From: Argopecten irradians
Taxonomy: Eukaryota; Mollusca; Bivalvia; Pectinida; Pectinidae
Direction of reading: 5' to 3'
Assembly: GCF_041381155.1 (NCBI RefSeq)
Contig: NC_091134.1
Span: 42,367,338 to 42,431,337, forward strand
DNA length: 64,000 bases
Shown here: positions 1,026-63,576 of the stretch, one piece after another
How positions within the stretch are numbered: the stretch's first letter is position 1
How the letters are laid out: each line of letters starts with the position of its first letter
The notes under the pieces: generated by a model
Database searches by the model: none
The model's input: only the letters and a program-made list of their open reading frames with translations
What the model was told of the DNA's origin: nothing
Position numbers and translations under genes: made by a program

Positions 1026-2608
1026 TGGAGAAGTTATTGCTGTTTCCTCTGTATGTCTGGAGTTTTCATTTCTTTATATTTTAGCAAGCTTTTAGTCCTT
1101 GCCTCTGTACATTCTAGCAAGTCTAGGACAGTTTCCATTCCTCTGTGTTCTATTGAGCCTGAGAAATCTGTTGTTTTACTACCGGTATGTTCTATTGAAT
1201 ATGGAGAAATTATTGTTAAGATAACTGTTATTTCTCATGTTGTGTTGTATCTCTAGTTCTGTTGACTTTACTACCAGTCCTGGTGACACTTGTAAGTGTC
1301 AGTGCCTTTAGTACTAAGTAGTCTGTGATGATTTAGACCATTTCCTTATACAGCTCCTAACTACACAAATATCTTCTGAAATCCAGGTGTTTACCTAGAA
1401 ATTAAGTGCTTTAAAACGTTTTACTGTTTACCCACTAACATTTCAACTAACTTCAGGAATGGTTGCTAAATAAAATAAAAATTGTCTCATCTGAACTTTG
1501 TCATTAACCTTATTATTAATGACATTGACCTTATGTGGCCATGTCTGTGACTACCCTTTGCATAGCGTAGTTTGTAATAATGATGTAGTTCATAAATATT
1601 AAACATTTATTTACATTTTGTCTTTAATATACATGTGTTTAATTGTTGGACTAAAAAATTAAATAAACAAATTGACTAGAAAAATGGCTCTCTTGTGTTT
1701 TAAAACAGAATAATATGCACAGTTGAGACATGGAAATTAATCTCTTCTTTTGATCATTCGGAAAGCAATTTACCATCTGATCATGCATGCTTGAAAATAC
1801 ATGTACATAAATTATGTATGCTTCCTACAGAAATAACATGAAAGGTTTGGTAAATTGATACACTCACAATTGAAAAGTTTTGATCAGATCATATCAAAGG
1901 ACCTTCCCTAAAACAATGAACATTGGATTCTCATCCATAAGAATGTATGACAAATACAAATAACATCAGAATAATCTGTGAAGCATATTGATTTGACTCC
2001 AATGAGTGGTAACCTGGTCTAAAGGCTATTGATTAACTGACCACACCTTCAGATGGACAGTGTAGGAAATCAAGATGTAACTTTAGTATGTCTTGCATCT
2101 ATTACATTGTAGAGGTAGTGCATGGAGACTGTTAGCATTAACATCATGGTGTAGAAACTACCCCTTCTACTCAACAAAAATATAACTTATCAACATAATA
2201 GTCATTATCACTTATAATTAACATTAAAACATAACGCTCTACCATTTGCACTCAGCATCACAACATCCCATTACATCTTATAGTACACAACATGTATACA
2301 TCATACCAATACCGAACCAAAATCTGTACAACTTTCATCTTGTTTGTTCTATTAATGGCCAATGTCATTTAATGGTGTGCCAGGTTTAGTAGGTGTAAAA
2401 AAAAGTTTTATTATCATATGGGATTAAAACTCAAAAATCGAAAGTGGAGAGCTAGTGGTAAAACTTAATGTCAAAACTCTTTAATCACTTGGCCGCCACG
2501 GTCCATACTGGTATTTAAAATCCTGACTCACTACCATATTTACTCCATATCCACAAACCCTATAGCACTGTCATACATCCGAAACACATTAGGCATAACA
2601 CAGTATAA
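1026..2608. other. AT-rich non-coding spacer between arrays
   Basis: No exon, RNA gene or transposon end was recognised on either strand. If the GH3 gene ends inside this window, its 3' exon could lie here, because the intron after its exon 10 is still open at 7639. I searched the minus strand for a phase-1 acceptor followed by a GH3-like C-terminal tail and found nothing convincing. Confidence 0.5.
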
Positions 2609-7639: not shown

Positions 7640-10600
7640 CTGGTTTGTTGACTAGGCCTGTACCGTCCCACACTGCTGTCTGATGGGCCGTAATGATGAC
7701 CTGACACGACTGTGTCTGACCTGGGATTAGGTGTGTCCTCTTTGTGCCTACTAACTGGTACCGCGGCATGTCACTTGCATTGTGCCAGGAAATATAGATC
7801 TGGGATACCTACAAACAACACATAAATATTCTGTATTTGCATATTACAGAGTTATCTGCCCTTGTGCATAGGTATTGATTGTGAGGTCATGTGTTTGCAA
7901 GCATAACTTCATTCTTTTCGGAAAAACAACATGCATTGCACTCACAAAATAATGACATCACCATGGATACCAACCCGAAAGGGAGCTAACTCTGTAAAAT
8001 GCAAAGACGGGATTCTCACAAAGGACATACAAGAAATACAATCTACTAAAAGCTAGAATTTTATATCCAACAAAGGAATAATGTGTTCCTTAATATTTCC
8101 TAGTGTTGGCGACATTTAATGTTGCTGTGACCTTGAACTTATTTGATGTGATGAGCAAGTAACAGACTGAAATATCGGTATAGTAGTTACAAGTATTTAC
8201 TAACCTCAGCTCCTTCATATTTCCCAGTGTTGGCAACCTTGAATGTTACTGTGACATTTGCCCCAACCTTGACCTTGGCTGGTTTGATGGTTAGCTGACT
8301 GTATCCAAACTGTGTGTAGGACAGACCATAACCAAATGGATAGAGCGGGTCATCTGAGAAGTACCGATAGGTCATGTTGGTCAAACTGTAGTCCGTCATA
8401 GACCCCACCTAGTGGAAATTGAATAGAGAGGTCATTAGAGAAACTGATGTTTTTTGTTTGTACTTTTAATAGCCAAGGTCATATAAGGACAGATTTAGTA
8501 GTTAGAAGAAAGCTAGAGTTAAAGTAACCAGAAAAACCCACTGACTAAGGCTCAGTGAATGAAAGTGTAAGTTTCGAACTCACAAGCCAAGGAGGCAGGG
8601 CTAATGGTAATGTTTTTGAGAAACTGGATGGCCATTAATTTACTGGTAATAACAATAAAAAGTGAAACAAATAGAAACCAAAAGAAAATCATTAGATGTA
8701 CTGTAGGCAATCCAAAAATCCACTTGTCCAAACCAAAAAGGTCCAATACATGGTATTACTCCCTAAGGATATAGTCTAGCCCTTATATACTATACCTGAC
8801 TCATGTCCGAGTACCAAGTGTAAGGAAGTCGTCCAGATGGATTGCTGTCTGGTGTGGCGAAGGTGAGGACATTGTACAGAGCACTTCCAGTCGCCTGGGC
8901 CGGGAAGAAGCATTGCATGATGGCCATCACCTCTAGAGATGTTTGGGCCAATCTGATGTCGACTGGCCCAGCACTAAATAGGAGTAACACCACTTTCCCT
9001 CGGCCTATAATGGAAAGTTTGTTATAAAATTACATCACTTGCCATTTGACTACAAGGAAAGGAGAGATAAGCATGGCTAAATGTACACTTGTGTTTTTTG
9101 TTAATTGGTATCTTTAAACATTATAACAATACCATCATCCAATAATTCTTATTACCGCCTTGAAACTATCTAACTTTGAAGAAAAAAACTTTTGCAGACA
9201 TAATCCAACTTCAAGGGGAGATAATTCATACTAAATTGTACCACCTAGACACAATTTAACTGAGGAGAAACAACTCAAACTGTCATGCAGACACACTATG
9301 TTTGAGAGCAGACAATTAAAGGACGTAATCTGACTTAAAGGGGAGACAACTGTAATATAGACATTATCTGACTTTAAGGGAAGATCATTAACATTTTTCT
9401 AAAAAAATTGTACTTTATAGGGAGATACACGTAATTTGTTTCGGAATCAAGCACCAAACTGATATGTATTATACCTACCAAAGCGTATAGAGTCCTTGAG
9501 AAGCTGAATCTGGCCAATGGGTAGCGACATGTCTGCACGGTCCATTGTCTCTGATTCAAGTGCATTACCTGTAGTATCAACATGAAGATAGCAGATACTT
9601 GCAAAGGGGAAAAAATGTTAAAAAGTGAAATACACATATAAGTGACATTTTACATACCAGACCATAACATCAACTTTTCCATAAGAAACAATGGGAGATT
9701 AAAATGACCTTGTTCAGTGTTAGAGAGATCATGAAAAAGAGTTACCTGTTCCCAGACAAACTATTGTGACGTCTGCCTCAGAAACTGCGGCCTTGACCCC
9801 TGACTCATCATAGTGATCACATGCAAGGTCACTACAACCTGCTGTATACAAGACTTTGGAACCGAGTTTGGATAAGCCACTTTTCGGGGTCGTCATAAAC
9901 TTTGAGTCAACGTCTGGATGATAGTCTCCCATCAACTGTAAAGGGTTGTCAGCCATCGGTCCAACAATCTGAATGTAATATATAAAAGTAAGATATAATT
10001 TACTTGTGATGGTGTTGTCAGAATGCAAGCTTATCACTACATCTATTATCTGACTGGTAACGGTATTTTTTTTATAAATACATAATGTATTATGATAAAA
10101 TTTTATCAGGTTTTTGATTGACCACTTAAAACTACCTTTAAGTTTAACTATTCAGAAAAGATTAGTAAATCACAACTAGTAACTGGCCCATAATTGGTAA
10201 CTTACAGCAACCTTTATCTGACTTACGATTGGTGACTTACAGCAACTTTTATCTGGCTTATGATTGGTCACTTACAACTACATTGCATCATTAACTGACT
10301 GATGATTGGCTATTTACAAACCAATCACTGATACCGTTACATATCATTTATATTTTACAACTTACTGCTAATGTTTCTAATTTCCTTATGATTGGAAGGA
10401 ACCCGTTTGAGTTTTTCAGCAGAACAAAAGACTGTGATGCTGCCTTGATTGCCAAGTCCCTGTGCTCAGGACTTTGTATGACTGATAAGTTCAGTTTATT
10501 ATCGGGGTTCAGTGCAGGTGGATCAAATTCTCCGAGCCTCAATCTGGTGAGGAATAATGGCATCACTCTGTCAATGAGCAGTTGTTTGTTAATCCGTCCC

Positions 10601-13600
10601 ATCTCCAGGGCCTTGTTTAGATAACTGAACATTGTTGTCCTGTACAGGAATGTCCCTGGTGAAAGTTCCAGATTGAGGCCAGCCTCGGCACATTTTACAG
10701 CCGTCGTAATGGCATCAGGGTAGTACATGTGGTCGAGGACAATGAACTCAACTGCCCCGGCATCACTGACAACAAATCCATCAAAGCCCCATTCCTTCCT
10801 CAAAATGTCTATCAGAAGCTTCTTATTGGTGCAGGAAGGAACACCATTGATGCTGGAACAAACAAATAACAGTTAAACATTCACAGAGACTTTCAACTTT
10901 GGCATGGCAAACCATTACTACACTTATGAAGAATAATCTTAAATTATACTGTATGATAAACTAAAACATTGCAACATATGGCCAGTTCTTTATTGACCCT
11001 GTAGGTAATGGCAAAGTTTATCTTAAGATTTACGGTAGATAATTGGAATTTACCTTTCATAAAGTACCATGGTAAAGGAAACAACGGAAGTGATACTAGA
11101 AATCCAAACCAAAGAGTAGTGTATTCCATGACCTCATGTTATCACAGCTGTTGTAATGACTAAATCTCTTAAAATCAAAACTTAAACTTTACTTTTCCCT
11201 CTAGCATTGTTTTGTAAATTGCAGCATCAACCATTCTAGATGTAGAGTATAGATTTGGTAGGCATCATTAGAGCCAAATAATGTGGAATTGTGTATGATA
11301 AATATAGTTAAATACCTATTGTAACTACACATGATGCCTCCAGCTCCAGCCTTTACACACGCCTCAAACTGGGGCAGAAAGGTCATTCGAAGGTCACGCT
11401 CATTTACCTGTTAAAATAATAATATATACACTGTATTCAAATTAATAATCACAAATACTGTGGTTCTCAGATTGATCCTCAATTCTTGGAGTACAAGTCA
11501 TTAGATTTTTCAATTTTATAATGAACAAAAGAAACAATTGTAACTGGAATATAGCTTTAAATATTTCTATTCTACCTCAGCATTCAGGTACCTTAGGTAC
11601 CAGATATTTTCTGGACTACTTACCTCAAAGTGAAATTAGAGACAGGAGACAGGAGACAGGTGTATTCTCTAGCCTATTACTTACTACAGCATTGAATTGG
11701 AGATGGGAGATAGGTCTATTCTCAAGCCTACTTACCCCAGCATTGAATTAAAGACAGGAGACAGGTCTATTCTCTAACTTATACTTATCTCAGCTTTGAA
11801 TTGGAGATGCAAGACATGTCTATTTGTTGAATTGGAGACAGGAGATACACTATATCTATGCTCTAGCCTACTTACCTCAGTATTGAATTGGAGCCGGAAG
11901 ACACTAGAGAGGTCTATTCTCTAGCATACTTATCTCAGTATTGAATTAGAGACGGGAGACACTAGAGAGGTCTATCCACTAACCTACTTACCTCAGGGTT
12001 GAATTGGAGATGGGAGACAGGCCTATTCTCTAGCCTACTTACCTCAGCGTTGAATTGGAGCCGGGAGACAGGTCTATTTTCTGGTCCACTGTAGGCAGCA
12101 AAGTGTTTACATACTACATTGGCACGTCTATATTTGGAATGTTGACCCTGTAGTCCATGTACAAAAGCCTGAGCAAGCAGGCCAGACAGATATGGATCCT
12201 CCCCATAAGTTTCCTGTCCATATTAAATAAACCTCATACATGTTACAGCAGAAATGATCGAGCAAAGGTAATGTACCTGTACTCTGTACATTTATAAGTA
12301 AATCCAATAATATTAAATTTAATCCATTGATCACAGAAAGTAGGCCTAATCTCTTCTTCATTTTCACAAACAAAAGCTCTTCAATAATTTTGCATTATAG
12401 ATAACTGTGGTAGAATCTATGCAGAGTTGAAGATTTATAGATCTACATATTGACATATAGTTCCACAGAAATAGTTATAAACACTGTAAACCTTAAATTA
12501 CCAGAACTGTTTCTCAGTTTATAGAGCAATATTTTGCACATATCTCACCTGATTTCGTCCCCACAATGGATGCCTCATGATATTGATGACTGGACTAAAG
12601 CAACTGAGACCAGTGTGGTCTGAGTAGTCATTGTTTTTACGAAAATTGTTATACTTGGCTCGAACTTCTATGGCAGTCGCTTCAGATACTTCATACAGTA
12701 GTTCTGGACTGTAATGGTAATGCTTCACTTTATACAGGTCTTGATATTAATATAATATATTTAATATATATTAATATATATAATGTAATTAATATAATAT
12801 ATATTTCATCTAAAGTGTAATAAAGCAAGGAAATATTGTTTAATTTAAAATGATGCATAAAAACCAAAACAATGAACGCCATACATATAGTTACAACAAG
12901 CTTTATTCATTATCGGTATCCTACAACTACGAACTAGTGCCTGGTAATCTTCCCCCTTACCATATTTGCACTTATATAGGCCATAGCAATGTTTAAAATC
13001 TTAAAGGGACTTGTTCTGTGGATATTAAGGACGCACCTCCGCTAATCTGGGACAGCTAATCCGCGATCAGCTGTCCCAGAGAATTGTTTGTTTTAAAGGA
13101 TTTGTGCAGCCAATTTTTTTTTTTTGTAATACGTCAGGATATTGCTTTGGATGAATGAAAAATTAAGTCCCACCCAACGAATCGCCTATCTTTTAGCGCT
13201 ATCGGTTGGTTTTGGTCGTGATTTACGGGTAGTGTCGACTACGGTTCAGAGATAATGAGCTAGGTGGTCACGTGGTCTTGTGATGTTAGAGTAGTCCGCG
13301 GCTACACAAGGTAAGCCTAGTACTATACATGTATACAGCATATATACGTATACGTTAGATATACAATTTGAGTTTTTCGAGTAAATGGTTATTCTAGCTT
13401 TATGATGTAGATATTTACAGTTTCAAAACATTCCATTTACACCACTTAAAAAATTCAGACAAGCATATATCTAACTTTAGATTAGATAATCAGTCCAGTT
13501 TGATAGCGATATCAAAATGATGTTCGGATCAGTTTGGTCTGAGACCAAATTTAGCATGAATATATCTAGAATCCGTGTTTTTATTTCAAACTTCTTCTAT

Positions 13601-16083
13601 AACGATGCAAACACGGCACAGTTTTTGAGTAAAAATAAAATGTGGACGGTTATTAGTTATGTGATATTGGAGTAACAGTACCGAACTTACAACGAAAATA
13701 ATATGTATATCTATATTGTTGCCTTTGAAACTTTATCCATAACGCTTACTAAAAAGCAGAAATATATCAATGGTATTTCTGATATATGTTCCTAAATCAC
13801 AGTTTAAGTGTAGATTTAAATTCATTATTTCAAAATTAAACTAAATCCTTAATATAGTATATTCATTGTCGACCGTTTTGTATCATACCGAGATTTAATA
13901 GTAATATTTGAACATTTATCGTATAATCCAAAAAGTAACCACATAAAGTGTTCAAATGAAAATTGAAATTACTTGTATACAGGCATTATAAATAGATATA
14001 ATATCTTGTACCTTTTTAAAAATATACTAAGTGATATTTAAATAAGCATATTTAGTGTGATAATGTTGTAACCTTTCTTGTATGACTATACATGTACATT
14101 TAGATTCGAAACGGTGAAAATACATGCTTAGAATTTTTACTAATACCTTAGAAATTACGGAAGATTGCTATATGCCACGATTCCGTAATTACAGTTCTAG
14201 ACTGGAATGATTTTTAAGGTTAAATCTTTAGTTGAAATAGTTCTTAGAACCATTTTTGTTTCTGAATAAGTCACCTTCCATTTTTGTTTTACCTGTGTAC
14301 GACATATATATATATGTGTGTATGTAATATATACTCCTAGGTATGATCAGGTATATTTTATTTCCATTTGCTTTTACATCTTCATTTTAAAAATGGAGGT
14401 GACAATAAAAAACCTAGAGCATAGATGTACGGGGTTTCCATAATTCAAATCACAATCCAATTAACGGATGTCCTAACCTGATTGACAGTAAGACAATAGC
14501 AAATACCCGATATAGTCCACCGAATAGCAAATTGCCCGCGGCCAGATAATTACAGGTGAGTTCGATGAATGGCGTTGTGTACAGGTAAACAACATCCTGG
14601 TCAAGGTATTACATAACCATCAAACCAAAGGCATGGCTAATTATATATCTATAATATCGGTGATTCTACTCGTATATCGATTAAAACTTGAAAGCGACCG
14701 CACGGTCTGAAAAAATAGTTTGTTTTGCTTAATATCTCGTTTATTTGATCTTTTATAATATCAAAAGTAAATATGGAAACGTTTTACGGTATTGAAATAA
14801 ATGTATCTCGATTTATTCGGTTAGCAACACACAATACAATGTTTGTAATGATCAATCATCGGTGTGTACGTATGTCAAGCATCATATCCTTGATGCTTTA
14901 ATCAAGGATTTCTTAAATTGTTACGTAAAATTTCATTTTACTGTCACAAACTTTGCATTTCACAATGAATCAAAGATACAGACTACAGGAAAATATTATC
15001 GAAATAAAGCATATTCGTTGCTGAACTCCTCGACAAAAAAATCTGAAACTTTTATTTCTGTGTGGATTTTCTTTCATAATTACACGAAGATACTTGCTAT
15101 TAGAGCATAAATTAGAGTATTTGAACCATCGAATTTCACTTATTTAGTTATAAAAATTCGAGCCAAAGTTATTGTACGATTAACTTCACTCAAAAGTAAT
15201 CATTAAAAAATCTTTGATCGGCTTTTCCTGTGACCGTCGATGTAAGTGATAGCACATCAGTTGTAGTACAGCTATAATCCACGGACTATTGTGACGTCAC
15301 ACGGTTTAGAGCTATAAAATATGCATAATCGGGTGGTCAGAAAATTTGACCTCGATATCAGCGGTTTACAGGTTATTCCGGTTGCGCGCGGCACGGAGAG
15401 GTTTCTACATGGTCTACTAAAGCCATTTCCAGTATAAACTGAAATCCTCCTCCATTTGCAAGACCTGCCACTTGTTAAGGGTTTTTTTCAATGAAAATTG
15501 CCAGTGAATTGCATTTAATTGGGTAATTATTTGTTATGAGATACCGTTATCACGGAATTATTCTTGACAAATCAAATAAAATGCAGCTCTTGAAAAAGAC
15601 CTGAATCAAGTCAGCATAGACACGTACAGTTTACGTTTCTCATCTTATATGTTTGACACATTTAATCAAGCCAAGTTACATAGTAGGTTAATCATTAAAA
15701 ATCAACTTCATTATGTCTAACTGGTAATTTTTGTAACATGTTTTATTAGCCAGTGTGTATACTTACTTAAAAGAAGCAGCCAAACCGATAGACTGTGGGT
15801 ACGAGGTTGCATTTCCCGCACCTACATCCCCTCTTAGACATTCGCTATCCCACTGGAAAGGCCCTATGCCGAGGCGAGGTATTGAAGGAGCTGGACCACC
15901 ATTCTTTCCTCCTCCGCCTTTGGACATTTGTAGAATGAGTTCAGATACATTTAGTCTATTAACCAAGTCTCTAGCCCGTTCAACGTAAGATAGAGATGTG
16001 TTCCTGAATGGATAATCTGATGTTACAACTCCTATCGAATAAACTGAAAGTAGGAAACAAGTCACATAGTAAACACCCGCCAT
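7640..16083 (-). CDS. Secreted GH3 beta-xylosidase-like glycosidase (3' end not found)
   Basis: Ten exons (5' to 3'): 16083-15767, 12708-12549, 12213-12043, 11407-11316, 10852-10366, 9968-9746, 9568-9479, 9004-8796, 8408-8205, 7808-7640, giving 707 residues plus one base. All have GT-AG borders and fit in phase. The start at 16083 has a strong context (AAAATGG) and begins a hydrophobic signal peptide of about 22 residues, so the enzyme is probably secreted or lysosomal. Family motifs in order: SPVINIMRHPLWGRNQ and ETYGEDP (exons 2-3), GGIMCSYN (exon 4), GFDGFVVSDAGAV with the expected nucleophile Asp277 (exon 5), the GH3 C-terminal domain (exons 6-8), YPFGYGLSYTQF and a fibronectin-III-like domain (exons 9-10). 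The family removes xylose or arabinose from plant or algal polysaccharide; exact substrate is not readable. About 40-60 C-terminal residues are missing compared with relatives. Intron 1 is 3 kb. The many introns argue against bacterial contamination. Confidence 0.9.
9060..9400. repeat. Diverged tandem repeat in GH3 intron 7
   Basis: Several decayed copies of a roughly 60-70 bp unit around AATCTGACTTAAAGGGGAGA and GACAACTG occupy the intron between GH3 exons 7 and 8. Copies are strongly diverged, so the array is old. Confidence 0.5.
10165..10325. repeat. Short tandem repeat in GH3 intron 5
   Basis: Three to four copies of a unit of about 45-55 bp containing TTGGTGACTTACAGCAAC and TTTATCTGGCTTATGA lie in the intron between exons 5 and 6, immediately downstream (in gene direction) of the exon 5 donor at 10365. 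Confidence 0.7.
11570..12094 (-). repeat. Minisatellite copying the exon 3 / intron 3 boundary of GH3
   Basis: The 3' end of GH3 exon 3, its splice donor and the first bases of intron 3 are repeated about eight times, with spacings of about 50-85 bp. Read on the minus strand, each unit runs CTCCAATTCAACGCTGAG then GTAAGTAGG. The true exon ends at 12043. The next copy, 51 bp downstream, has an intact GAG/GTAAGTAGG donor and stays in frame, so using it would add 17 residues that repeat the local peptide. The third copy has the donor changed to ATAAGT. Later copies keep or lose the GT variably and are not all in frame. Confidence 0.9.
12728..12795. repeat. AT-rich simple repeat in GH3 intron 1
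   Basis: A (TA/TTAA)-rich stretch of about 65 bp, some 20 bp upstream of GH3 exon 2. Low-complexity sequence with no further signal. Confidence 0.8.
13046..13080. repeat. Perfect 12-bp inverted repeat (hairpin)
   Basis: TCTGGGACAGCT at 13046-13057 is the exact reverse complement of 13069-13080, with an 11-base loop containing CCGCG. It sits in GH3 intron 1 in a patch richer in CpG than its surroundings (13000-13320). It may be the end of a fold-back transposon; no partner end was identified. Confidence 0.7.
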
Positions 16084-16377
16084 TTTGTTCAACTTATGAT
16101 CATGTGACAACAAAATCACGTGATAACAATCTGTCGGGAACAAGTTGTACTCCAGTCAACTGCAGCACCTTACCAGAAACATATACACATATGACCTTAC
16201 TCAGAAGCCGTGCTTATGTAGAAATGGAAAAATTGCTTACAACTCAGAATAAAAGCTCATCTAAAATATTCACTTATACAATTAAGTTTACCTAAAATCA
16301 AGGACGTAGATATTAAAATTAGACAAATTAAAAGAAAGCCGATATAGGCCTATTGTAGGTATAGCGGCTACATCCTA

Positions 16378-20358: not shown

Positions 20359-21005
20359 ATGTCACTACCACGAAAGCAGTCACAGGAAAGTAAATTCCAA
20401 AACTGGCATGAAGTGGCAGTGGGGATATCCACAGCTACCCGAGGACTGGTGGACTACCTAAAGGACACTTCCATACATCTCCACACCTGTATAAAGGTGT
20501 CAGACCCCTGTGCTGGGCTAAGGAAGTGTAGTAACAATTGTAGCCAGCGCTACAGGGATCTCTTTGAGTGGTGCCCCACTTGTACAGAATGGCGAAACAG
20601 ATATTGAGGCACCACAGGTACAACTCTAGGGACGACGAGATACACTGGAGCAGAGTGGACTCCTCCCAGTGGCAGGAGAGCGTCGATGAGATGGTCAAGG
20701 TATACGGCCCCAACTGGTGGAAGGGCACACCAGCCTATACTTCTGATCTGGCAGTGAGTTTACACATACTTAACAACTGTAGCTCGTTCTGTGTCCCTGA
20801 GGAGGTGTGCCGGGCAGTGCGCAGTGTAAGACAGGGATATTTCACCCATGGTAGATTACAGATCAGTACACAAGAAAAGGACAATGCCTTAAAGACACTG
20901 ATACAGTTGTTAGAATCACCAGAGATAGCAAAGACTCGGTCAGGAAAACATGCCTTAAAGCTCCTGATTCTATTCACCAAGGTTCCTAATACAACCACAA
21001 GGTAA
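20359..21005 (+). CDS. CXorf38-like protein, interrupted by a one-base frameshift
   Basis: The first frame runs 20359-20607 and ends in CPTCTEWRNRY-stop. The second continues from about 20590 to 21005. Human CXorf38 has a matching run from its CxxC through EWK, ILRHH and HW, so the two frames are one gene. The break is in GCGAAACAG near 20590: one extra A in the A-run would restore EWRKQILRHH. Conserved features are Cys57, Cys61 and the CxxC pair (Cys72, Cys75), LxILNNCSSF, and an R-x5-H (RQGYFTH) where CXorf38 has R-x4-H, reminiscent of the HEPN RX4-6H motif. No intron splits the visible part, but AAG/GTAACT at 21001 just before the stop could be a donor. Biochemical function is unknown. The break could be a real mutation or an assembly indel. 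Confidence 0.75.
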
Positions 21006-24791: not shown

Positions 24792-27700
24792 CTACCGATG
24801 ATGGAGTAGTTGAGTCAGTTTGTCCTGGAGAGCAGTCACTGTAATCCTGTTTTCTATGTTGTGCTGTGGAAACAAAACGAGAATTTGAGAAATATATTTA
24901 ACAATACAAACATGCTACATAGTATTCTTGCTAAAATTCATTAGAGCAAAATGAGGAATAGTTCTTTAATCTGTTTAATTATTTACCTGCCAACAATTAT
25001 CCATCAAGAGATTTCTGACTTGTGGTGGTACTGTGTGTTTGGTGGCCGTCATCATGTTGTCCACATTACTCATCACCTGTAATGTAAAATAAGACACACT
25101 CTTCTCACCTCGTACAATATACCTTAGACATTAGCATGAACCATACAGAAGAAAATCTTTTCTATAAACAGTTGTAGTCTGTTTCAGTTTGGTTTATTAA
25201 AGTCATATTAACAGTGGTCTTTTATTATGTTACAACGTTTATGTCATTACAGAAATCCTACCATTTACCCCTACATAAACCTAGAGTCTGGGGTAAGTCT
25301 TTTATGTCATTACAGAAATCCTACCATTTACCCCTACATAAACCTAGAGTCTGGGGTAAGTCTTTTATGTCATTACAGAAATCCTACCATTTACCCCTAC
25401 ATAAACCTAGAGTCTGGGGTAAGTCTTTTATGTCATTACAGAAATCCTACCATTTACCCCTACATAAACCTAGAGTCTGGGGTAAGTCTTTTATGTCATT
25501 ACAGAAATCCTACCATTTACCCCTACATAAACCTAGAGTCTGGGGTAAGTCTTTTATGTCATTACAGAAATCCTACCATTTACCCCTACATAAACCTAGA
25601 GTCTGGGGTAAGTCTTTTATGTCATTACAGAAATCCTACCATTTACCCCTACATAAACCTAGAGTCTGGGGTAAGTCTTTTATGTCATTACAGAAATCCT
25701 ACCATTTACCCCTACATAAACCTAGAGTCTGGGGTAAGTCTTTTATGTTATTACAGAAATCCTACCATTTACCCCTACATAAACCTAGAGTCTGGGGTAA
25801 GTCTTTTATGTCATTACAGAAATCCTACCATTTACCCCTACATAAACCTAGAGTCTGGGGTAAGTCTTTTATGTTATTACAGAAATCCTACCATTTACCC
25901 CTACATAAACCTAGAGTCTGGGGTAAGTCTTTTATGTCATTACAGAAATCCTACCATTTACCCCTACATAAACCTAGAGTCTGGGGTAAGTCTTTTATGT
26001 TATTACAGAAATCCTACCATTTACCCCTACATAAACCTAGAGTCTGGGGTAAGTCTTTTAGTGTTATACACCTTACACAAGAAGTTTTTTTAACCATTCT
26101 ATTAACAGCAATTCTATCTTTACTTAAGGTATAGATTTTTATTTTGTTGAGGTTATAAGGGTATAATGATAATGGAGCATGTGTATTCGCCGGGGTTACA
26201 TAAAATTTACACCAGCTTCATTATCATTATACCCTAATAACCTCAACAAAATAAAAATCTTTTCCTTATATTTACAGTTTTTCACGTAAATGAATATAAT
26301 TTATTCTCGCGGCAGTTGCATATTTGTTATTAAAATACCCCTATTTTTTTCTCTCTCGTCTTCGTCAACGAATTCAATTGAACAGCTGATTGGAATCGAG
26401 TCATTCATATGTTCCCATCAAAAGTGGGGTCATGACCCCACGTTGCTACGCCATCGACTGTTCCCATAACAATAGAATTGCCGCACGTGTTGTGCTATCA
26501 TTATACTCTGATAATGATAATACTAGAAAGCATGGTTATTGAGTCCATGTCAGCGCAAACTGTAAATATTCTTGGATAAATGACATTTTTTTTGGTAAAA
26601 TATTACTCTAACATAAATGCAGAATATGCGCAGCCAGACCTTGGTTCAAAACCAGTACAGCTCTCTGTTTGCCAGAAATCGATCTGATCCAGAACCGTTA
26701 TATTACAGTGCATCAAAGTAATTCTATCATTGAAAGTATGAACAGATAAGGATGATCATCTATTTTGGATTCACTAGCTCTTTTAACATATACGTTACTT
26801 GTTTTAAGTAGATAAATTTCTTGATTATGATGAATCAATTGATTCTGAACCTTTACATAAAATTAGATAAAATACAAATGACATTATACCGCTTTAAATA
26901 TAGCTTCCCGACTGGAGTGCCGTAAGTGGTGCCACATCTGTTTTCCAGTCAGCATCTCTGCAAACAGACAAGCTGCTCCCCATATGTCTGATCTCTCCTC
27001 CAGCTTTATATAACTGTCACAGGCCACAATCTTAAGGAATAATGGGAACAGTATGAGGCATATACATAATAATTTGTACATCTCTTTTGGTTTTGCTTTA
27101 GTCTAGATAAATCATATTGCATACATAACATAGTATACAAAGGACTATGTATGGTATGGGCTGGGCCCTTTTTGGCCCTTAAATCCTTGAAAACTGTTAT
27201 TTAGTGATTAATTTGTTATATTTATTACATCCCTGATTCAACTATAATAACTGTTTTTTAAAAACCATAGAGCGCATCCTTGAACAAACTTTATATTTCT
27301 CCTAAAGATGAATTGGAAGTGCAGACATATTCTCAGTAAATATTAAGTTTGTTCAAGGATGCAATCTATAGTTTCATAGACAAAAACTTGGCAAAAAATG
27401 ACAAAAATTTTCAAAATTTCCACATTTCATAATTTATAACAGGAAAATTTTGTTCCTTACTCTCTATGATTTTTGCAAATTTTTATATATAGAAAGCTTA
27501 CCTCAGGGGGTACGATACAGGCCGGAAGTGTACTTTTGTGGAAAACCACATCTGCTTTATCATTCCTGATGAGTGACATTGATAAATTGGACAAGTATAC
27601 CTGGTTACGTATTGTGTCCTTAAACAACACATTGGAGGCTGAAAAACAAGCAACATTGTTTACAAAAGAGGTCCAATAGGCCTGATTCTTTTATCAGGTA

Positions 27701-30700
27701 CTGATATCTAACTGATTCTCTATATCAAACCATTTAGTAAACAAAAAGACACATGATAATATGAGACAAATGGAATGCAATGTTTTTCAGATATTTGGGA
27801 AAACTGTTTACCAATATACTTGTTTGCTTACCTGTCCAGTATAGGTAAATGATTTGCTTTTCATGAAGGAATGTCAGAGCGCTAAGTAACTGCTGCATGA
27901 TAAAGGTAGCCTCATCAGGTCTCAGGAACATGTGGAGATCTTGGTACTCTTCTAGTGTACCACCTGTAACACAAAACACTTCACTATACAACTAAGGAAA
28001 CGTACAGGTATCAAAACACTTTACTATATAGCTAAGGAAACATACAGGTATCAAAATGCTTCACTATACAGCTAAGGAAACATACAGGTATCAAAACGCT
28101 TCACTATACATCTAGGTAAACATACAGGTATCAAAACGCTTCATTATACAGCTAAGGAAATATACAGGTATCGCAACACTTCACTATACAGCTAAGGAAA
28201 TATGTGTTACACTTCACTATACAGCTAAGGAAATATGTGTTAAACATCTATAATATGAAGGCCTGCATGCCAGATTTCATCAATGAAAAAAAATAAATCG
28301 TAAAAAGAAAAATTTGCAGTATGAAATTCTTTTTGGCAGTAGAAATTATAATTGTATCAAAATAAAACCTTCCCTTATAAAAGTGTTACATTTCATACCT
28401 TTTAAACTGGACACTACAAGTGAAAACAAAGTAATACCCTTTTGGCCCGGAGATATATATTCCCATCAATATTTACAACTCAAGCACAACTTTATTGTAA
28501 TGGTAATTCAGTGATTATCAATGCTTACCACACATGAATTCTGTACATGTGTATAAGTAGTCAGCCGTGTTGTAGAGCCACATGTGGGGAACTATACGTT
28601 GGTGCCCACAACCAATCAGCTTCCTGTAAACCTCCATCAAGTTGCTTCTACCACGATCTTTCTTCAACACCTACATATAAATAACACCAAATTTAGTTTT
28701 CTTAAAAGAACATCATTTGAAAGTTATAAGTTTTGACATTAAGAGTTGATAAAGAACATTGGCAATATTAGATCAAAGTTTTATTGGTTTTTGTAAGTTA
28801 TCATTAAACTTTTTTTGACTTTTTAAACCGCTTTACCTGTATCAGTATGTGTGAAAAGTTTTGATGACTAGGAAATTTTGCATTCACCATACAGATGACT
28901 GGTAAAGCATCAGGAACATGTAAGGCAACAGGTCTAGAAGTGATTAGAACCTAACAAGGCTTCCAACTTACGCGCTTAAGTATCAAGTCTCTGCTGTCCA
29001 CTTTCTCCTCTTCTTCAGTAAACATGGCCACATTACCGTAGTTACCAAACGTGGTGATGAGGATCATCTCGGGACTAGGGACGGCGTCAGTGTAACCAGG
29101 GGTGGTGAACTGAAACAGGGTGGGTTGTCATATTGTTAAAATACTCTCCAAGTTCCATTTACCATTAGTTCATACAAAACATATTATTTGCAAGACTACA
29201 TGTACAATCGTCATAAACGATGATAAGAAGAAAAACAATAGCAATCAAAATCTAAGAGGGTGGCCTGTTGGACATCTTGTTGTCCCAAAATGTATTAAGC
29301 AAATCTAGGGCTTATGTGGAGCCTATACATATGAAATTTGAGAATGAGGCCTTCAGTATTTTCCGAGAATTTGTGGTAATAAACTTCAACTATCAAAATC
29401 CAAGATTGCGGCGATTGGCAATCTTGTGTATTGATTGGTACAAAGAATCTACCATATTTTCCGGAGTATAAGCCGCGACTTTTTTCCTTGAAAATCGGGA
29501 GTGCAGCTAATACACCAGTGCGGCTTATCCGTGGACGAAAACCAAAATCTGACCATGTTTTTGCATTATTACGTCGTGGGCTTATATAACGGTGCGTCTT
29601 ATACGTGTACAAAACCTGAAAAAATCGTAAAAAAGACCTCTGCGGCTTATCCACAGGTGCGGTTTATTGTCCGGAAAATACGGTACACATGAAAATATGA
29701 CACAGATCCCTTCTACAGTGCTTTCTTAGAAATAGAAGTAACAAACTTCAACTATCAAAATCCAAGTTGGTGGCCAATCGGTCACAAAATGCATTAAGAC
29801 CCTAGGGTAACCTATAATGGAACTCGGTTAATACGAAATCAAAGAACAGAGATAAAACTTTGATTTATCCAAGTGTTTGAATTAAGCGAGTTCTCAATTA
29901 AGTCTACTGACGTTCTTAGTAATTTACTTGGTAATAGATCTGCTTGTTTCATGTCGTAAAACGATGTGAGCAAGAAAGCTATCAGAATCGTCGATGGTGG
30001 TTGCAAAATTATAACAATAAAATCAAAATAAATCTAAAATATCAATTCATCAACTGCACTCACAGCAGATTTTTCACTCACATATAAATAACAGACATAA
30101 CTTACGTAATTGAGACACGTTTTCATAGGAAATTATGTAGAAAGTAATTCTGCGCATATCAACTCATGATCAAACGATGGTGGCTGGTGAACAGTGTAAA
30201 GTCTATTTTGCCGAGTAAAAAGTTCAAAGCACTAACATTGCTCACACCTAAATAATTGTAGCATCGCTCTATAAAAACAGTGATCTTGTGCGGCTCCAAG
30301 TTGTGATTGCATTTGGAACACATTGCAAGGTGGTAAGAGATTAGTTCCATTCGAGTGTTCACACCATGCATGTGACAGGCTGGACGAGAGCACCTGTTTT
30401 GTATCAGGTCGCTATTCAGTCGAGGTAATGTTTATGTAAGTAATGAACATGAACTGTAGCTTTACAAATGATTATTGCTGATGATTGTTGATAAAATATA
30501 ACTTTGGTTCAATGCTAAACATTTAACAATTTTCCCGTGTTTTTGTAGTTGTAAGAAGCTTTTGAAATGCTGTTTTACGGCATATTTGTGGAAAAATCTG
30601 CATTTTCGGTAATCTTGTTGTCCAAAAAATCTCAATTCGATTTATACAAATGTTTTATGTATGATTTTTGTCATTCTGACCAAAAATTTACTTTGTATTA

Positions 30701-33681
30701 TCTGAGTTTTTCGAGTTTTCTGAATTAGAATTTTCTGAGTTTGATAAACAAACAGATGGAAGGACCGACCACAGGCAAAAGATGATTTAAAAAGACTGAA
30801 GGCAGCATTTGTTTTACTATATAATTTCCATGCTATATTTACCTCCTTTACCTCCCCCCCCCCCTTTTCACCCCCTCCCAGAACCTCTCATTCCCTGCAT
30901 GATCCCTTTACCTCTAGGAACTCTCCTCTGGCTGGGTAATCTTTAAATCTCTGGCCAAGACTGATACAGGGCAAACTCTGGCAGAGTAGGAACTGAGACA
31001 CTTCCTCAATCCCGCTGGAATAACTGTAACAGTAAGAAATGAGAAAAGTATAAACCTGAGGTCAACTCAATTGTGCACTCTTAAGAGAATTTCTTATACA
31101 TGTAGATGGAAAAGCTTTCAGAGGTGAGTTACAAACTAATTGATCAGAAGGAAATTGAATTCTAGAAGTAGAAGAGAGTAAATCGAAATAGGCTTGAACA
31201 TGAATTTACCTTCAATTCAACTTTTACAAGACTTTTGCCAGTCTGATAACAAGGTATTTTACAATAATTTTTAGTTTGTCCTAGAGTTGGAATTTCAGTT
31301 TCTATGAGAATTACCTGCGTAGGAGATGACACATAGGTACTGCACATTTGTACAGATATTGACAACAACTAAGTGTGTGATGGTAGAGGGCGTGGCCCAC
31401 CTGTTGGAGGGTAGTGTTACACTCCAGTGACCATTGTCCAGCCAGTGCCTGCGTCAGACCAATCACAGCCTCTCGTACCTGTAACAATGTCAGATTTCAT
31501 ACTTTTGAGTGTTAATAATTTATAATTATTATAATATCTGACTGATATTCAACTGAAATAATCTTCCTTGATTTTTCAAAAAAGTGATGAGGAAGATTTG
31601 TTTTAGTGCATATCTGGTAAATAACAATCAATAATAATTAACAAATATTTTTGCTAATATGTAGTACTGTAAAACATACCCTGTTACACTTGGTGTCAGT
31701 ACAGGAACTGTCGCGGCACCGTGAAATGTACTCAAGGTCAATGGTAGTACTCTGAAAAATGGAAATGAAGTACTGTATATCTATGTAGGGAGAAAAAAAT
31801 ATTACAAAATTACTCCAGAGAGAAAAGGGCAATATTTTACAAATACTCATAATTCTTATTTGAAGATAAACCACAACTCAAAGCAAATCCAAAGCAAACA
31901 TAAATTAAACAGCATATCACATTAAGAACTATGTTGAGAACCCTGCAAAAACCTTTGGAGAAACCAATCTTACCCTACTCCATCATTTGTGTCACAAACA
32001 ATATAATAATGTCTCAAAGGTTTCCGATGATTTCCAGAAGGGAGTTACTAAGTCATAAGAAATGTTGACTAACTCCTCACCTCATTTTGCTGCTTAGGCT
32101 TGCCTTGGTTAGGTGTCTGGTCTAGAAATAAAAAGTAACATCTTCACATTAATGTTAATATCATAACAGTCACAAAATCAAATTTTGTTTCTTGTCTATG
32201 CGTTTACAATAAATTATGTTCACATCTTACTAACCGTATATTGGCTGTGGTAGGGGATAAAGTGGAGGACATGATAAACAGTAGTAAACTGCTCTCTTAG
32301 GTGTTTTAAATTCAACAATCAATTTATATTCATAGTTACCATTTAGAGAAAACATTTCTAAGTAAGTGGTAAATTAATAAGTTCATGTACCACATTAGAG
32401 GGAGTATTTCACTATTATTCACACAGAAGAATATAACTTACATGGCGAAGGTGAGTTTGGTGATAATTTATAAGTTTCCAGCAAGTTGAGAAATTCCAAT
32501 GGGTCCTCCAAGTGTCTCTCTAGTAAAGATTTATCATTCTGGATCATTTGAATAAGCATACTGAATGGAGATCTGGGCAGCGCTTCAGCTTCTTCACTAG
32601 ATTGTGGTGCCTGGGACTCCACATTAGTAGACGGTATTTGTTCCCCACGTATATATTTACTAAAAACAAGATCATAAGATGGTGTTTGATAGCTTGGATC
32701 AGGCATGCCCGAGATATCAGTAGGAAGACAAACACTACTGTCAATGCCTGCACTCACATTACTTGGCATGCTGCCATTCTTTACGTAATTCAAGGAATCT
32801 TTCATGTTATCCCTGGATGATAACATGCTTACAAGTGGAATATTGCCAGCAAAATTGTCCTCACTTTCCTCCTTACCAAACACAGAAAGTATAGGCATAT
32901 TTGCATCTTCCCTAGTGGTATCTGAAAATGGAGATTCATATTGCAGTTTATGTCCCGACACAGTAGAGCCACTTTCTGCACTGGACTGAGAGGGTAGAGA
33001 GTTGGTAGGTGTTCCTGATGACAGGATACTAAGATTTGGTAATGCATCACTATTTGAACTGGAATTCATTTTTTCCTGAAGAACCTTCATTGAATGTTCT
33101 TCATGGTTATCAAAGACTTCACCTTCATGGTTCTGGGAGCCCATAGAATTATTCTTACTTCCATCTGACCCATATCCCGAGTCTTTGTAACTTCGACGCC
33201 GACTTTTAGCCTCATTGTTGTTGGAATTATCATCCTCACCATTTTCATGGTCTTGAAAACTGACACTTCTGATATATGGGGCTTGTTCTGGACCTTTGTC
33301 CAATGTTGAGGGGTTCCATTTTAAAATACCACATCCTCTGTCTGACGTAGCTGTTTCACTTTTTTCTCTGCCTTTCTTAAAAAAATTACAATCAATAGGT
33401 AAATTGTCTGGGTGGTCTGCCCTTGGACTGACCACATCTGGTAGTTCATCACTGTTCATGGAGTCACAGAATGTTGGTGTATGGTCGAGTGAGCTGGCCA
33501 TAGTAACCAGGTCCGGGACACTGGTACATTGCCCATATTCATTGCAAACTCCTTCATCAATTTCATCAGATCTATCCAAAAGTCTTTTTCTTCTTCCTGG
33601 CAGATTATTCGATCTTGAAGGCTTGCTATCTGTTGAATCCTGTGGATGTTCAACATCCTGATATGGGTCAAGGCTTGCCAT
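24792..33681 (-). CDS. TAZ-like zinc finger protein with C-terminal pseudokinase domain
   Basis: Twelve exons: 33681-32442, 32121-32081, 31751-31680, 31478-31315, 31023-30912, 29109-28972, 28670-28529, 27963-27832, 27638-27502, 27030-26890, 25076-24987, 24863-24792. Together they give exactly 826 codons plus stop, with GT-AG at every junction. The ATG at 33681 has G at -3 and +4; the frame is open upstream but has no earlier ATG. Residues 1-370 are disordered and Ser-rich, with DSGYGS at 167-172. Residues 371-404 look helical. Residues 435-505 resemble a TAZ finger: C439-x4-C444-x4-C449, then C471, ALYH, H485-x3-C489, C496-AVPM-C501. Residues about 555-826 have kinase layout: degenerate glycine loop FGNYGNV (564-570), Lys588, Glu602, SDIWG (740-744). 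HRD is YLY (676-678) and DFG is NLS (698-700), while Asn683 is kept. By eye the lobe is nearest the NIK/MAP3K group. Likely a catalytically dead scaffold. Confidence 0.85.
25241..26059 (+). repeat. 63-bp tandem array, 13 copies, in a pseudokinase intron
   Basis: Thirteen almost identical 63-bp units lie in the intron between pseudokinase exons 10 and 11, on the opposite strand sense. Each unit reads ATGTCATTACAG, a 40-bp body (AAATCCTACCATTTACCCCT...), then GTAAGTCTTTT. The only common variant is GTCATT against GTTATT. It occurs in copies 9, 11 and 13, so copies 8-13 alternate as dimers. Because 63 is divisible by three, two plus-strand frames stay open for about 290-306 codons. Confidence 0.97.
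26134..26259. mobile_element. Fold-back (MITE-like) element with 41-bp arms
   Basis: The 41-bp arm at 26134-26174 (AGATTTTTATTTTGTTGAGG...) is the reverse complement of 26219-26259 with about one mismatch, around a 44-bp loop. It lies 75 bp after the 63-bp array in the same intron. A related TATCATTATACTCTGATAAT piece follows at about 26497. Confidence 0.85.
27970..28245. repeat. Tandem repeat next to the pseudokinase exon 8 acceptor
   Basis: Six to seven copies of a unit of about 42 bp (CTTCACTATACAGCTAAGGA plus AACATACAGGTATCAAAA) begin within about 15 bp of the exon 8 acceptor at 27964. In gene direction they occupy the last 280 bp of the intron, including the usual branch-point zone. Confidence 0.9.
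29250..29805 (+). mobile_element. Pearl-like monomers in a pseudokinase intron, split by a MITE
   Basis: Fragments of the 155-bp monomer (AACTTCAACTATCAAAATCC, ACATATGAAATTTGAGAATG, GACACAGATCCCTTC) flank the MITE at 29452-29683 in the intron between exons 5 and 6. Orientation is the same as the element at 22817-24140. Both ends of the element are missing. Confidence 0.65.
29450..29685. mobile_element. MITE with about 25-bp TIRs and TA target duplication
   Basis: The left end CCATATTTTCCGGAGTATAA and the right end (reverse complement CCGTATTTTCCGGACAATAA) are inverted repeats with few mismatches, bounded on both sides by TA. The element is 232 bp, has no coding capacity and is inserted in pearl-like repeat DNA. 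Confidence 0.85.
29815..30745. mobile_element. Possible pogo/Tigger-type non-autonomous element
   Basis: The left edge GGAACTCGGTTAATACGAAA and the right edge (about 30680-30745, reverse complement with ACTCAGATAATACAAAG and AAAACTCGAAAAACTC) look like decayed inverted ends rich in the CTCGGTTAATACGAA theme of pogo-like elements. No transposase was recognised. It lies in the same pseudokinase intron as the preceding MITE. Confidence 0.4.
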
Positions 33682-59794: not shown

Positions 59795-62700
59795 TCATGT
59801 TGAGTCCTGTAAAACAAATATATACATTGTAAATTTTGCTTTAGTGCCTTTATCATGTTTTCTATATAAAAAATAATGGTAGTGTCAGCAATATACATTC
59901 ACCAAGAAACCAATTTTCTTCCTAGATGATAAGTAAAACACAGATAAACGACTGGCATATTATTGAGTCAGCATTAAACAGGAAAGAATTTCTTATTTTT
60001 TTTTTTTTACTGCTGTACAGTGTTCAGTAAAATGTCATTTACATGATAATCCATATGCCAATAATCTGGAAAACTCACAATCAGGGAATAAAATTGATTA
60101 TTGACCAAGAAGATGGAAAACGTCTGTCTGGAAAATTTGCAATCCGGATGGTTTGGACTGGGGATGAAAGTATCCGGATTATCGAGGGTCCACTATACAT
60201 AGTTTTAAAACTTGATATACCTTACTCATAGCACTCTGTACCATGGAACGAATGCTTGTAGGTGAAGAAGCAAATTTGGTGGACAGCTGTTTGACAAGGC
60301 GCTCTAAGTGTTCATCTTTACAAGGCAGTTTGGGGGCAGTCTCTTGGTCTACTGAAATAGGAAGAAAGAACTCTTTATAATTGCAGATAAAACATATGTT
60401 ATAAAGCAAATGCACTACAAGCTGTTCTTTGAATAGTGAAGTTTCACATTTGTTACCACCCTGAGAATAATTTGGTCGAAAGTGATTTTAAATGGTAAAG
60501 AATGAGACATGTAACAAAATTGTATTGTTTACTGATGTATGTATAAGTTAAATAGTAGTCGGGGCATTTTACATCTAATTAAACAATAAACATACCATAT
60601 AACATGATATGTCTGAGGGTACTTTCTGTTGTGGTTTGAAGCTTTGATGTAATATGTGGGTAAAATATTTATGGTTGGCCTATGCAGGACAGTGTTTCCA
60701 ATGCTACATCAACCAAAGAAATTGTTTAATTTCTGTGGTTCAACAGTAACCACGAAAACTATGAAATTTTATCTGATACAGATCATTCCTACCCACCTCT
60801 ATCTAAGTTTGTGATGTAGGGGTGTGCTAACAGGTCCTCTATACTGGCACGCTCTCTTGGCTCCCGAATTAGACATTTCTGTAAATAAAGATAAGGTAAA
60901 ATTCCTACACAAACTGAAAATTACAGAAATACAGACACAGCCTAGGCCTTCACCATTAGGAATACTATTAGATATAAGCGTAATTGTGAACATTTTTTAT
61001 TGAGCATTTGAATCCTGAATTTTCCAGATACTAAACAAATAGAAGCGACTACATTTCCAAAATAAAAATTGAAAAGTTGTTTCCTATTACATTTAAATAA
61101 ATTAAAGCCGTTTTGGTTACCATAACCTTGCAATAAAATAAAGATGCTTTTTTTATCTTTTTCCGTGTATTCTGACTATTAAAGGCAAAATGTAAGCTGA
61201 CCATGATTTAATTCTGTTTAAACTATTTTACGATTGAACATGCATCTGGTATGTAATTATTATCATCTGTATTATATTTCCAATGCATATTATTTCTTTT
61301 AAACACTTTTACTGAGATTATTCGGATGTGTAAATTTTCTAAACTGGCGAGTAAAATGGGACATGTGTCCATGACGGAATAATGTGTCACTAGTACAGAA
61401 AGAGTTAAAATAATACCAAGATCTTACCTGTATTGTGTCCATCAAGTTTTTGTCGGAGATGTCTTTGAATTCTATTGGGTAGTCTGGATTGATGATAGCC
61501 TTGAGTTTGATGAATGTATTTGTTATTTTCTGGAAAGGTGTGTGGCCATACACCATGTAAAACAGGATACAGCCGAGGCTCCAAATATCACTCTTCACAC
61601 CTAGCTATAGGACAAAGGGTACAACAATAAGTTTCTTCATAATATATAATATGTCAACCATGTCATCTGAAGAGATTCGACAGTTTTCAGGCATCCAATG
61701 CCTATCAAAGTAGCTGCGATAAATGCGTTACAGCATATCTTCAGATGACATATGTTAATTTTTCTAAACATTTTCTGTGAATTTTTTTCCATTACGGTCA
61801 TTTTTCATGTTTACTGTTTACACAACACATTTAGCCTTTTTCTCTATCTAGAGATCTGTTTTTTTCTGGTTAACAGGGCACCAGACATCTTTAATTTTCT
61901 TGATTTTTTAATGAGCACCCCACTGCAATCCACTACAGTCAGAAAATCACAAAGATAGCTATACATAAGTACCTTGTAGGTTGGTTTTGAACGTCCCCCA
62001 CCGTCACCTCCACAGGAGTCCACGATACTTTCTGGAGACATGTAGTTGAGGGTTCCCACCTGTGTATCTACCATTATACTGGTCTTATCACACTGGAGGG
62101 ACTTGGCTATCCCAAAGTCAATCAGTCGTAGTGTACCATCAATAACTAGGAAGTTAGACGGCTTCAAGTCTGAATGTATTATACCTGTAGGAATATGGAG
62201 GATAATATATGTACATGGTGACAACGATAACAGGGAAGTTAGACAGCTTCAAGTTCGAATGTATTATACCTGTAGGAATATGGAGGATAATATGTGTACA
62301 TGGTGACAACGATAACCAAAAAGTTAGACAGCTTCAAACTGGAATGAACTATACCTGGATATTATTTAGACGATATAGTGGGAAACCTGTCTATAATAAC
62401 TGCAGAAGAGAAGAGAGAAAATTTGTCATTGTTATATGTCTATAGATACTATACCAAGTAGCTATTTGTAACAAGTCAAGATTTCTGTACCGACTAGTCA
62501 GTTAATGTAATAGACATACATGTAAGTTATGTGCCATTGTTTATGTATGATATATGCATTACCACATACAATTAATTTAGATTATTTTTTCATTGATATA
62601 ACTTACATCACATGTATATACCAAAGTTTCAACATTTTGTTTGTAGCCTACCAAACATGATGAGAAATTCAAACATGGCTTTATAGTTATGTGTAACATT

Positions 62701-63576
62701 CTTGTAAAACCAATGGGCATTAATTATGACTCGATTCACAAAGAGTTTGTTCTGACATGGTAGTGCTAAATGCTTGCCTATATCAACCACAGGGACCTGG
62801 CAGAAATTTCTAACCAACCGTGTATAAATATATATATATAGTAAAGTAACAAGGGTATGAACTCTATAGTAGAGAAAAACACATATTTTTTTAACCTGAG
62901 AATTTTATAAAATAAACAGGCTCTATACATCTTTACTAGAGTTTGTTTCTCACCTTGTTTGTGTAGAGCTCCCACAGCCTGTAACATGTCCTCCCAGTAA
63001 AACTTGATGGTATTTGGTGAGAGGCGGCCTTCATCCTTAAGTCTATTTTTTATAAAGTTTGCAAAGTCTACAGTTCCATGTTCCATTACGATGTACAGCT
63101 TGCTGTTTTCTTCATCATATTCACTGTATAAGAAAATGTTTAAATGTGTTAAATTTTTCTAAATCATTACTAGAACACTAACATCCATCAGAAAGGGCCC
63201 CATACCTGCTAATTATTGGAGCTACAAATATACATGTACATAAAACGAATCAGACTCCTCTAACTTAAAATCCCATCATTTATTTCTGGAGAAGGGGGTT
63301 ATTGCCAGTAGAATATGGTAGGTTTTCTAGATCTTTTCTTACTATTTATACATTAAGATAACCTTTATCATTTCTGTTGGAGACACAGGCAAACAACTAA
63401 GTTTTCAAATACTCTACTTACTAATCATACATCTTGATGACCTTGGAACAGTACTGTAGGCGTTCTAATAAATGTATTTCATTACGATAGCCTTCCAGGA
63501 TCTGTTCGTTAGCATCTGACAGGTCAACCACCTTTATGGCTCGGTTCTCCAAGTTACAGTCCATAACTTTATACAC
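59795..63576 (-). CDS. TTK/MPS1 dual-specificity kinase, catalytic and C-terminal exons
   Basis: Seven exons in the window: 63576-63422, 63123-62954, 62184-61973, 61604-61428, 60878-60797, 60351-60221, 59806-59795, giving 312 residues and a stop, all in phase. The 5' part (N-terminal regulatory and TPR region) lies beyond the right edge. Numbering from the first residue here: Lys15 in AIKVV, Glu33 in YRNEI, the TTK-type loop [10 protein letters not shown] (112-121, Asp114), DFG at 131-133, [11 protein letters not shown] (150-160), [14 protein letters not shown]. These follow human TTK closely, including HSDLKP in place of HRDLKP. TTK phosphorylates KNL1 to recruit BUB proteins to unattached kinetochores. 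The activation segment keeps T143-S144 where TTK autophosphorylates. The last four-codon exon (Asp-Ser-Thr-stop) is the least certain; reading through the exon 6 donor would also stop soon. Confidence 0.93.
60030..60200. mobile_element. Pogo/Tigger-like MITE remnant in a TTK intron
   Basis: ATCCGGATTATCGAGGGTCC followed by ACTATA (60174-60199), read on the minus strand, is the typical GTGGACCCTCGATAATCCGG end of pogo/Tigger elements. Inner GGAAAAC and TCCGGA repeats and ACATGATAATCCATATGCC at about 60040 suggest a short non-autonomous copy. It ends about 20 bp from the donor of the exon at 60221. Confidence 0.55.
62151..62358 (-). repeat. 85-bp tandem duplication spanning a TTK acceptor and exon start
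   Basis: Units start at 62151, 62236 and 62321 (the third partial). Each contains the first 34 bases of the exon with the catalytic loop, its acceptor TCCATATTCCTACAG and about 50 bases of intron. The functional copy is the one nearest the exon body (exon start 62184). The middle copy keeps an intact acceptor (exon start would be 62269) but encodes [11 protein letters not shown], with Asp to Asn in the HSD motif. Its use would shift the frame, since 85 is not a multiple of three. Confidence 0.9.

Follow-up and report, generated by a model that had tools for sequence, protein, structure and literature searches.

The window, the 64,000-nucleotide stretch of Argopecten irradians DNA analyzed here, carries on its minus strand a gene of 12 exons coding for 826 residues without an internal stop (Table 1). 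The splice sites were picked by eye among candidate sites; all 11 introns are GT-AG and the phases are consistent. The window also holds two frames matching the protein kinase domain, an exon of glycosyl hydrolase family 3 with two frames resembling further parts of such a gene, and a DUF4559 match. One intron of the gene contains a tandem array, each unit of which resembles a short plus strand exon between TTACAG and GTAAGT.

Table 1. Features of the window, numbered from its first nucleotide.
Feature	Position	Strand	Residues	Remarks
Gene	24792..33681	minus	1-826	12 exons
Exon 1	32442..33681	minus	1-413	open frame of 413 codons
RRKRLL	33577..33594	minus	30-35	resembles a basic nuclear localisation signal
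DSGYGS	33166..33183	minus	167-172	fits DSGxxS
Exon 2	32081..32121	minus	414-427	linker; phase-consistent, GT-AG
Exon 3	31680..31751	minus	428-451	first TAZ-like site; aligns with p300 TAZ2 site 1
Exon 4	31315..31478	minus	452-505	C471 and third TAZ-like site
Exon 5	30912..31023	minus	506-543	linker joining TAZ-like module to kinase-like domain
Exon 6	28972..29109	minus
Exon 7	28529..28670	minus
Exon 8	27832..27963	minus
Exon 9	27502..27638	minus
Exon 10	26890..27030	minus
Exon 11	24987..25076	minus
Exon 12	24792..24863	minus
Predicted pseudokinase domain	24825..29046	minus	565-816	exons 6-12 (seven exons); PF00069
Tandem array in intron	25238..26060			13.1 copies of a 63-base unit, 99% matches
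Protein kinase frames	61844..63158	minus		two frames, 58.4 and 27.2 bits; reminiscent of MPS1/TTK
Glycosyl hydrolase family 3 exon	10351..10872	minus		54 bits
Frame resembling glycosyl hydrolase family 3	9729..10151
Frame resembling glycosyl hydrolase family 3	15763..16155			without Pfam match
DUF4559 match	20568..21002	plus		29.3 bits

We scored the exons with a codon-usage model trained on exon 1 and exons 6-11, holding out exons 2-5. In the chosen frame exons 2-5 gave 0.46, 0.25, 0.14 and 0.28 bits per codon, all positive, as were the remaining scored exons of the gene; exon 12 falls outside the scoring because the stop codon lay within its stretch. No other frame is open in exons 4 and 5; exons 2 and 3 each offer one alternative, which scores lower (0.25 and 0.11). 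The phase of exon 5 fits exons 4 and 6. Exon 2 codes for a Pro/Gln/Lys linker, and a transcript skipping it would lose the frame, since the phase is 1 at the end of exon 1 and 0 at the start of exon 3. These data support one consistently spliced gene model containing both the finger and the kinase-like parts. It is highly improbable that the finger and kinase exons stay unjoined in mature RNA as two transcripts, or that the locus holds a decaying gene. Such readings would suit a gene model built on genomic sequence alone and a kinase domain that has lost catalytic residues, but all phases match over the 826 codons, each internal exon scored has coding bias and the splice sites are intact.

The presence of a kinase-like domain, as claimed in the initial annotation, is certain by Pfam. 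PF00069 matches residues 565-816 with 84.4 bits (E 1.2e-23, cut-off 31.7), and only kinase families scored above cut-off in the 826-residue protein. Among the best 60 of the 1,146 PDB sequences with E 0.1 or less, ULK3 was the best match (E 4e-11); Tribbles 2 was matched at E 1.4e-7. Assignment to one kinase family was rejected, as the PDB matches are spread over ULK3, STK10, STK33, BRSK2 and others. In the alignment with ULK3 the Asp of HRD is replaced by Tyr678, the Lys that follows it (HRDLK) by Thr680, and the Asp and Gly of DFG by Asn698 and Ser700. The VAIK Lys (Lys588) and Asn683 are kept, and the alpha-C Glu position is occupied by Val603, with Glu602 adjoining. With the HRD and DFG aspartates both lost, the four substitutions make residues 565-816 read as an inactive pseudokinase, a status on which the initial annotation was silent.

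Ahead of this domain the same annotation placed a diverged two-site TAZ-type zinc finger. The motif itself lies within exons 3 and 4, and exon 5 fills the rest of the annotated span. The residues it quoted are all in place in the translation (Y435, C439, C444, C449, C471, H484, H485, C489, C490, C496 and C501). Site 1, Y435-x3-C439-x4-C444-x4-C449, has the exact spacing of TAZ2 with Tyr435 in place of the first His, leaving three of four ligands, and the middle site is indeed mostly lost, C471 alone remaining of four. The third site is complete (H485-x3-C489-x6-C496-x4-C501) and has two residues more than TAZ2, between C489 and C496. Eight of the 12 zinc-ligand positions are therefore kept and four are lost, the first His among them. 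The spacing from C471 to the YH pair, described as equal to that of TAZ2 without gaps, is so as far as H484; the true His-x3-Cys pair, H485 and C489, lies one residue further on. TAZ2 has a long first helix ahead of site 1, and its counterpart in this protein is short. The zf-TAZ pattern consists of three His-Cys3 zinc sites, and residues 428-510 do not have all three. The module may bind zinc.

Pfam does not place the module in zf-TAZ (PF02135, curated cut-off 25 bits). The family was not reported for the 826-residue protein, a 116-residue segment or an 82-residue segment, and a standalone TAZ domain found elsewhere in this genome clears the cut-off at 31.8 bits. Together with the four missing ligand positions, this speaks for an unrelated Cys/His-rich linker whose cysteine spacing converges on TAZ2 and which has a small metal site of its own or none. 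A phmmer search of 177,635 PDB sequences returned 11 matches at E 10 or less, and the top eight are all p300 TAZ2 (E 0.036 to 0.27), followed by weaker matches to MITD1 (two) and an Fe(II)-binding effector. The best value of 0.036 is borderline and so leaves room for convergence, but the order of the matches argues against it. As a yardstick, p300 TAZ2 as the query finds CBP TAZ1 at E 0.013, and the reverse search gives E 0.00087, both somewhat better than 0.036. A profile of three TAZ2-type sequences gave 19.9 bits for CBP TAZ1, 18.7 bits for residues 428-510, 17.4 bits for residues 428-543 and 12.8 bits for the whole protein. By this measure the module appears nearly as close to TAZ2 as CBP TAZ1 is (18.7 versus 19.9 bits).

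The similarity to TAZ profiles is above chance. Using phmmer with p300 TAZ2, one of 20,000 shuffles of residues 428-543 equaled the real score, and none of 50,000 did so with a four-sequence TAZ profile (real score 20.1 bits). With residues 428-510 and the four-sequence profile the real score was 21.4 bits, the best of 600,000 shuffles reaching 20.3, a result that weighs against convergence at equal composition. The TAZ2-only profile was equaled by one shuffle in 50,000. Two separate exons match TAZ2 in the correct order: among the window's 2,136 stop-to-stop frames of 20 residues or more, the exon 4 frame ranked first against p300 TAZ2 and the exon 3 frame third, with E-values that are weak singly (0.36 and 1.9). 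Agreement beyond the cysteines, for example at Q476 and P499, likewise disfavors convergence. Judging by the score tail of the 600,000 shuffles, the chance for each family tried would be near 1e-6, and over some 25,000 Pfam families this comes to the order of a few per cent, in agreement with the PDB E-value. On these two estimates homology of the module to TAZ is likely, not proven, and its membership of the TAZ family is likewise not yet proven. AlphaFold modeled exon 4 by itself (54 residues) as one long helix (mean pLDDT 75.4) and, with two added TAZ rows that bias the model, as three helices (pLDDT 63.3). Foldseek with the exon 4 model returned 16 matches, with no TAZ domain among them and none reaching E 0.001. 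The lack of a TAZ match would fit convergence, but we gave the exon 4 models no weight in either direction. Weighing both sides, we regard convergence as unlikely, if a serious contender. The annotated reading of the finger is partly supported: the likeness to TAZ2 stands, above shuffles and with p300 TAZ2 as the top PDB match, and Pfam does not report the module as zf-TAZ.

We also searched the host genome (845,758,899 bases). PF02135 finds CBP TAZ2, CBP TAZ1 and, apart from CBP, the standalone TAZ (L003; contig C3, match 1501-1713, minus strand) in a 147-codon open frame. With the threshold relaxed to E 10, the 10 scored candidates fell at eight places, including CBP TAZ1 (two exons), CBP TAZ2 and the standalone TAZ; the window exons, between which the module is split in this search, are absent. 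Two further places (L022 and L023, about 22 bits) are tandem repeats rich in Cys/His codons and were rejected as TAZ domains since they score by base composition. Another match, L025, contains seven stops, and L026 resembles a RING/IBR piece. Because repeat arrays reach about 22 bits, a TAZ score of about 20 bits cannot settle the matter by itself, a further point on the side of convergence. In a three-way alignment of exon 4 with the genome's CBP TAZ2 and standalone TAZ, residues C471, Q476, H485, C489, C496, P499 and C501 are invariant, at identities of 28% and 22%, respectively. No intron position is common to the module and CBP; CBP TAZ2 lies in one exon and CBP TAZ1 is split elsewhere. 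No second copy of the finger was found in the genome among eight scored candidates (seven places, three of them this gene and the rest at E 0.1 or worse), nor one of the pseudokinase among 26 (18 places, seven of them this gene). The best other match of the kinase part is a generic kinase (E 5.4e-4).

Residues 1-413 are serine-rich and acidic (67 Ser, net charge -30) and, from their composition, likely disordered. RRKRLL, which we take to resemble a basic nuclear localisation signal, is a weak hint of a nuclear location of the product. DSGYGS fits the pattern of the beta-TrCP phosphodegron DSGxxS and might mean regulated decay; it is a weak lead, the pattern arising in 986 of 20,000 shuffles of residues 1-413 (about 5%). 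At the end of exon 1, shortly before the finger, residues 371-413 form a hydrophobic-acidic stretch (net -3) that could dock on the finger as a helix.

According to PMC3534135, p300 TAZ2 holds three zinc ions, is unfolded by EDTA and needs zinc for folding, and its hydrophobic groove, ringed by positive charge, binds amphipathic acidic helices. The initial annotation suggested binding of transactivation-type peptides for the module. A true TAZ-derived finger that binds such acidic peptides in competition with CBP/p300 would suit the resemblance to TAZ2 and its groove, but most of the basic charge is gone. The module has seven basic and four acidic residues (net +3) versus +11 for p300 TAZ2, +11 for the genome's CBP TAZ2, +8 for its standalone TAZ and +8 for CBP TAZ1. 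This difference makes classical activation-peptide binding less likely and weakens the suggestion; we consider it quite improbable. The low charge favors another partner, or a contact within the protein itself. There is precedent for the latter, since TAZ2 acts within p300 by holding the acetyltransferase closed and inhibited (PMC10475075). It is conceivable, if rather unlikely, that a pseudokinase has captured a TAZ finger, the hallmark docking module of CBP/p300, and forms a class of signalling adaptor in the coactivators' peptide-recognition network, or that its acidic tail switches it by docking on the finger.

Our preferred reading, to which we give a probability of about 0.6, is an adaptor that joins a diverged TAZ-like module of two sites to a pseudokinase and has a non-enzymatic binding or scaffold role. 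One protein would combine a long acidic serine-rich tail, a diverged helical zinc module of TAZ type with two metal sites, and a protein kinase fold that, without its catalytic and metal-binding aspartates, would work without phosphorylating. The zinc module would dock a helical partner peptide or pack on neighboring parts of its own protein, and the pseudokinase would bind a second partner. If so, a TAZ-derived module on a pseudokinase would tie docking of the coactivator type to scaffolds with a kinase-like fold. With two of the usual three metal sites, it would also indicate how far a TAZ domain can be reduced.

The gene is real, its pseudokinase is firm and its diverged two-site TAZ-like finger is probable; the combination is unusual. 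To our knowledge, TAZ fingers occur in CBP/p300 and plant BT proteins, none joined to a kinase. We found no description of a TAZ-kinase combination in open-licence full text; one match there concerned the unrelated TAZ of the Hippo pathway, and another came from two separate rows of a table. A text search of the oyster kinome paper found no mention of TAZ (PMC4883820), and an eLife 2017 survey treats TAZ fingers as part of the p300/CBP architecture (PMC5560861). Like CBP/p300 TAZ2 (PF02135), the module has the x3, x4, x4 spacing of site 1, a complete third site (His-x3-Cys followed by Cys-x4-Cys), and C471, Q476 and P499 in register. Unlike it, the module has Tyr for the first His, a single Cys left of the middle site, a third site longer by two residues and little of the basic charge, and Pfam reports no acetyltransferase, KIX or bromodomain in the 826-residue protein.

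Outside CBP/p300, TAZ fingers are found in the plant BT proteins (BTB-TAZ). A further case is WSSV wsv100 (PMC12187017). Unlike the plant BT proteins, the 826-residue protein has no BTB domain reported by Pfam. Neither these proteins nor wsv100 are, as far as we know, kinase fusions. Like the module, the standalone TAZ of the same genome is a TAZ-type finger, but it has three sites with a complete ligand set and no kinase exon was seen with it; the two are not closely similar (22% identity over exon 4). KSR and Tribbles are pseudokinases in which an impaired kinase fold follows an N-terminal docking region, and KSR, a scaffold, has a Cys-rich finger of C1 type ahead of its kinase domain. The protein described here would share with both a catalytically impaired kinase fold and an N-terminal docking region, and with KSR a finger before the kinase. 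It differs from KSR in that its finger is TAZ-like rather than C1, and its kinase part shows no close relation in the PDB sequence search, where ULK3 is the best match and Tribbles 2 is weaker.
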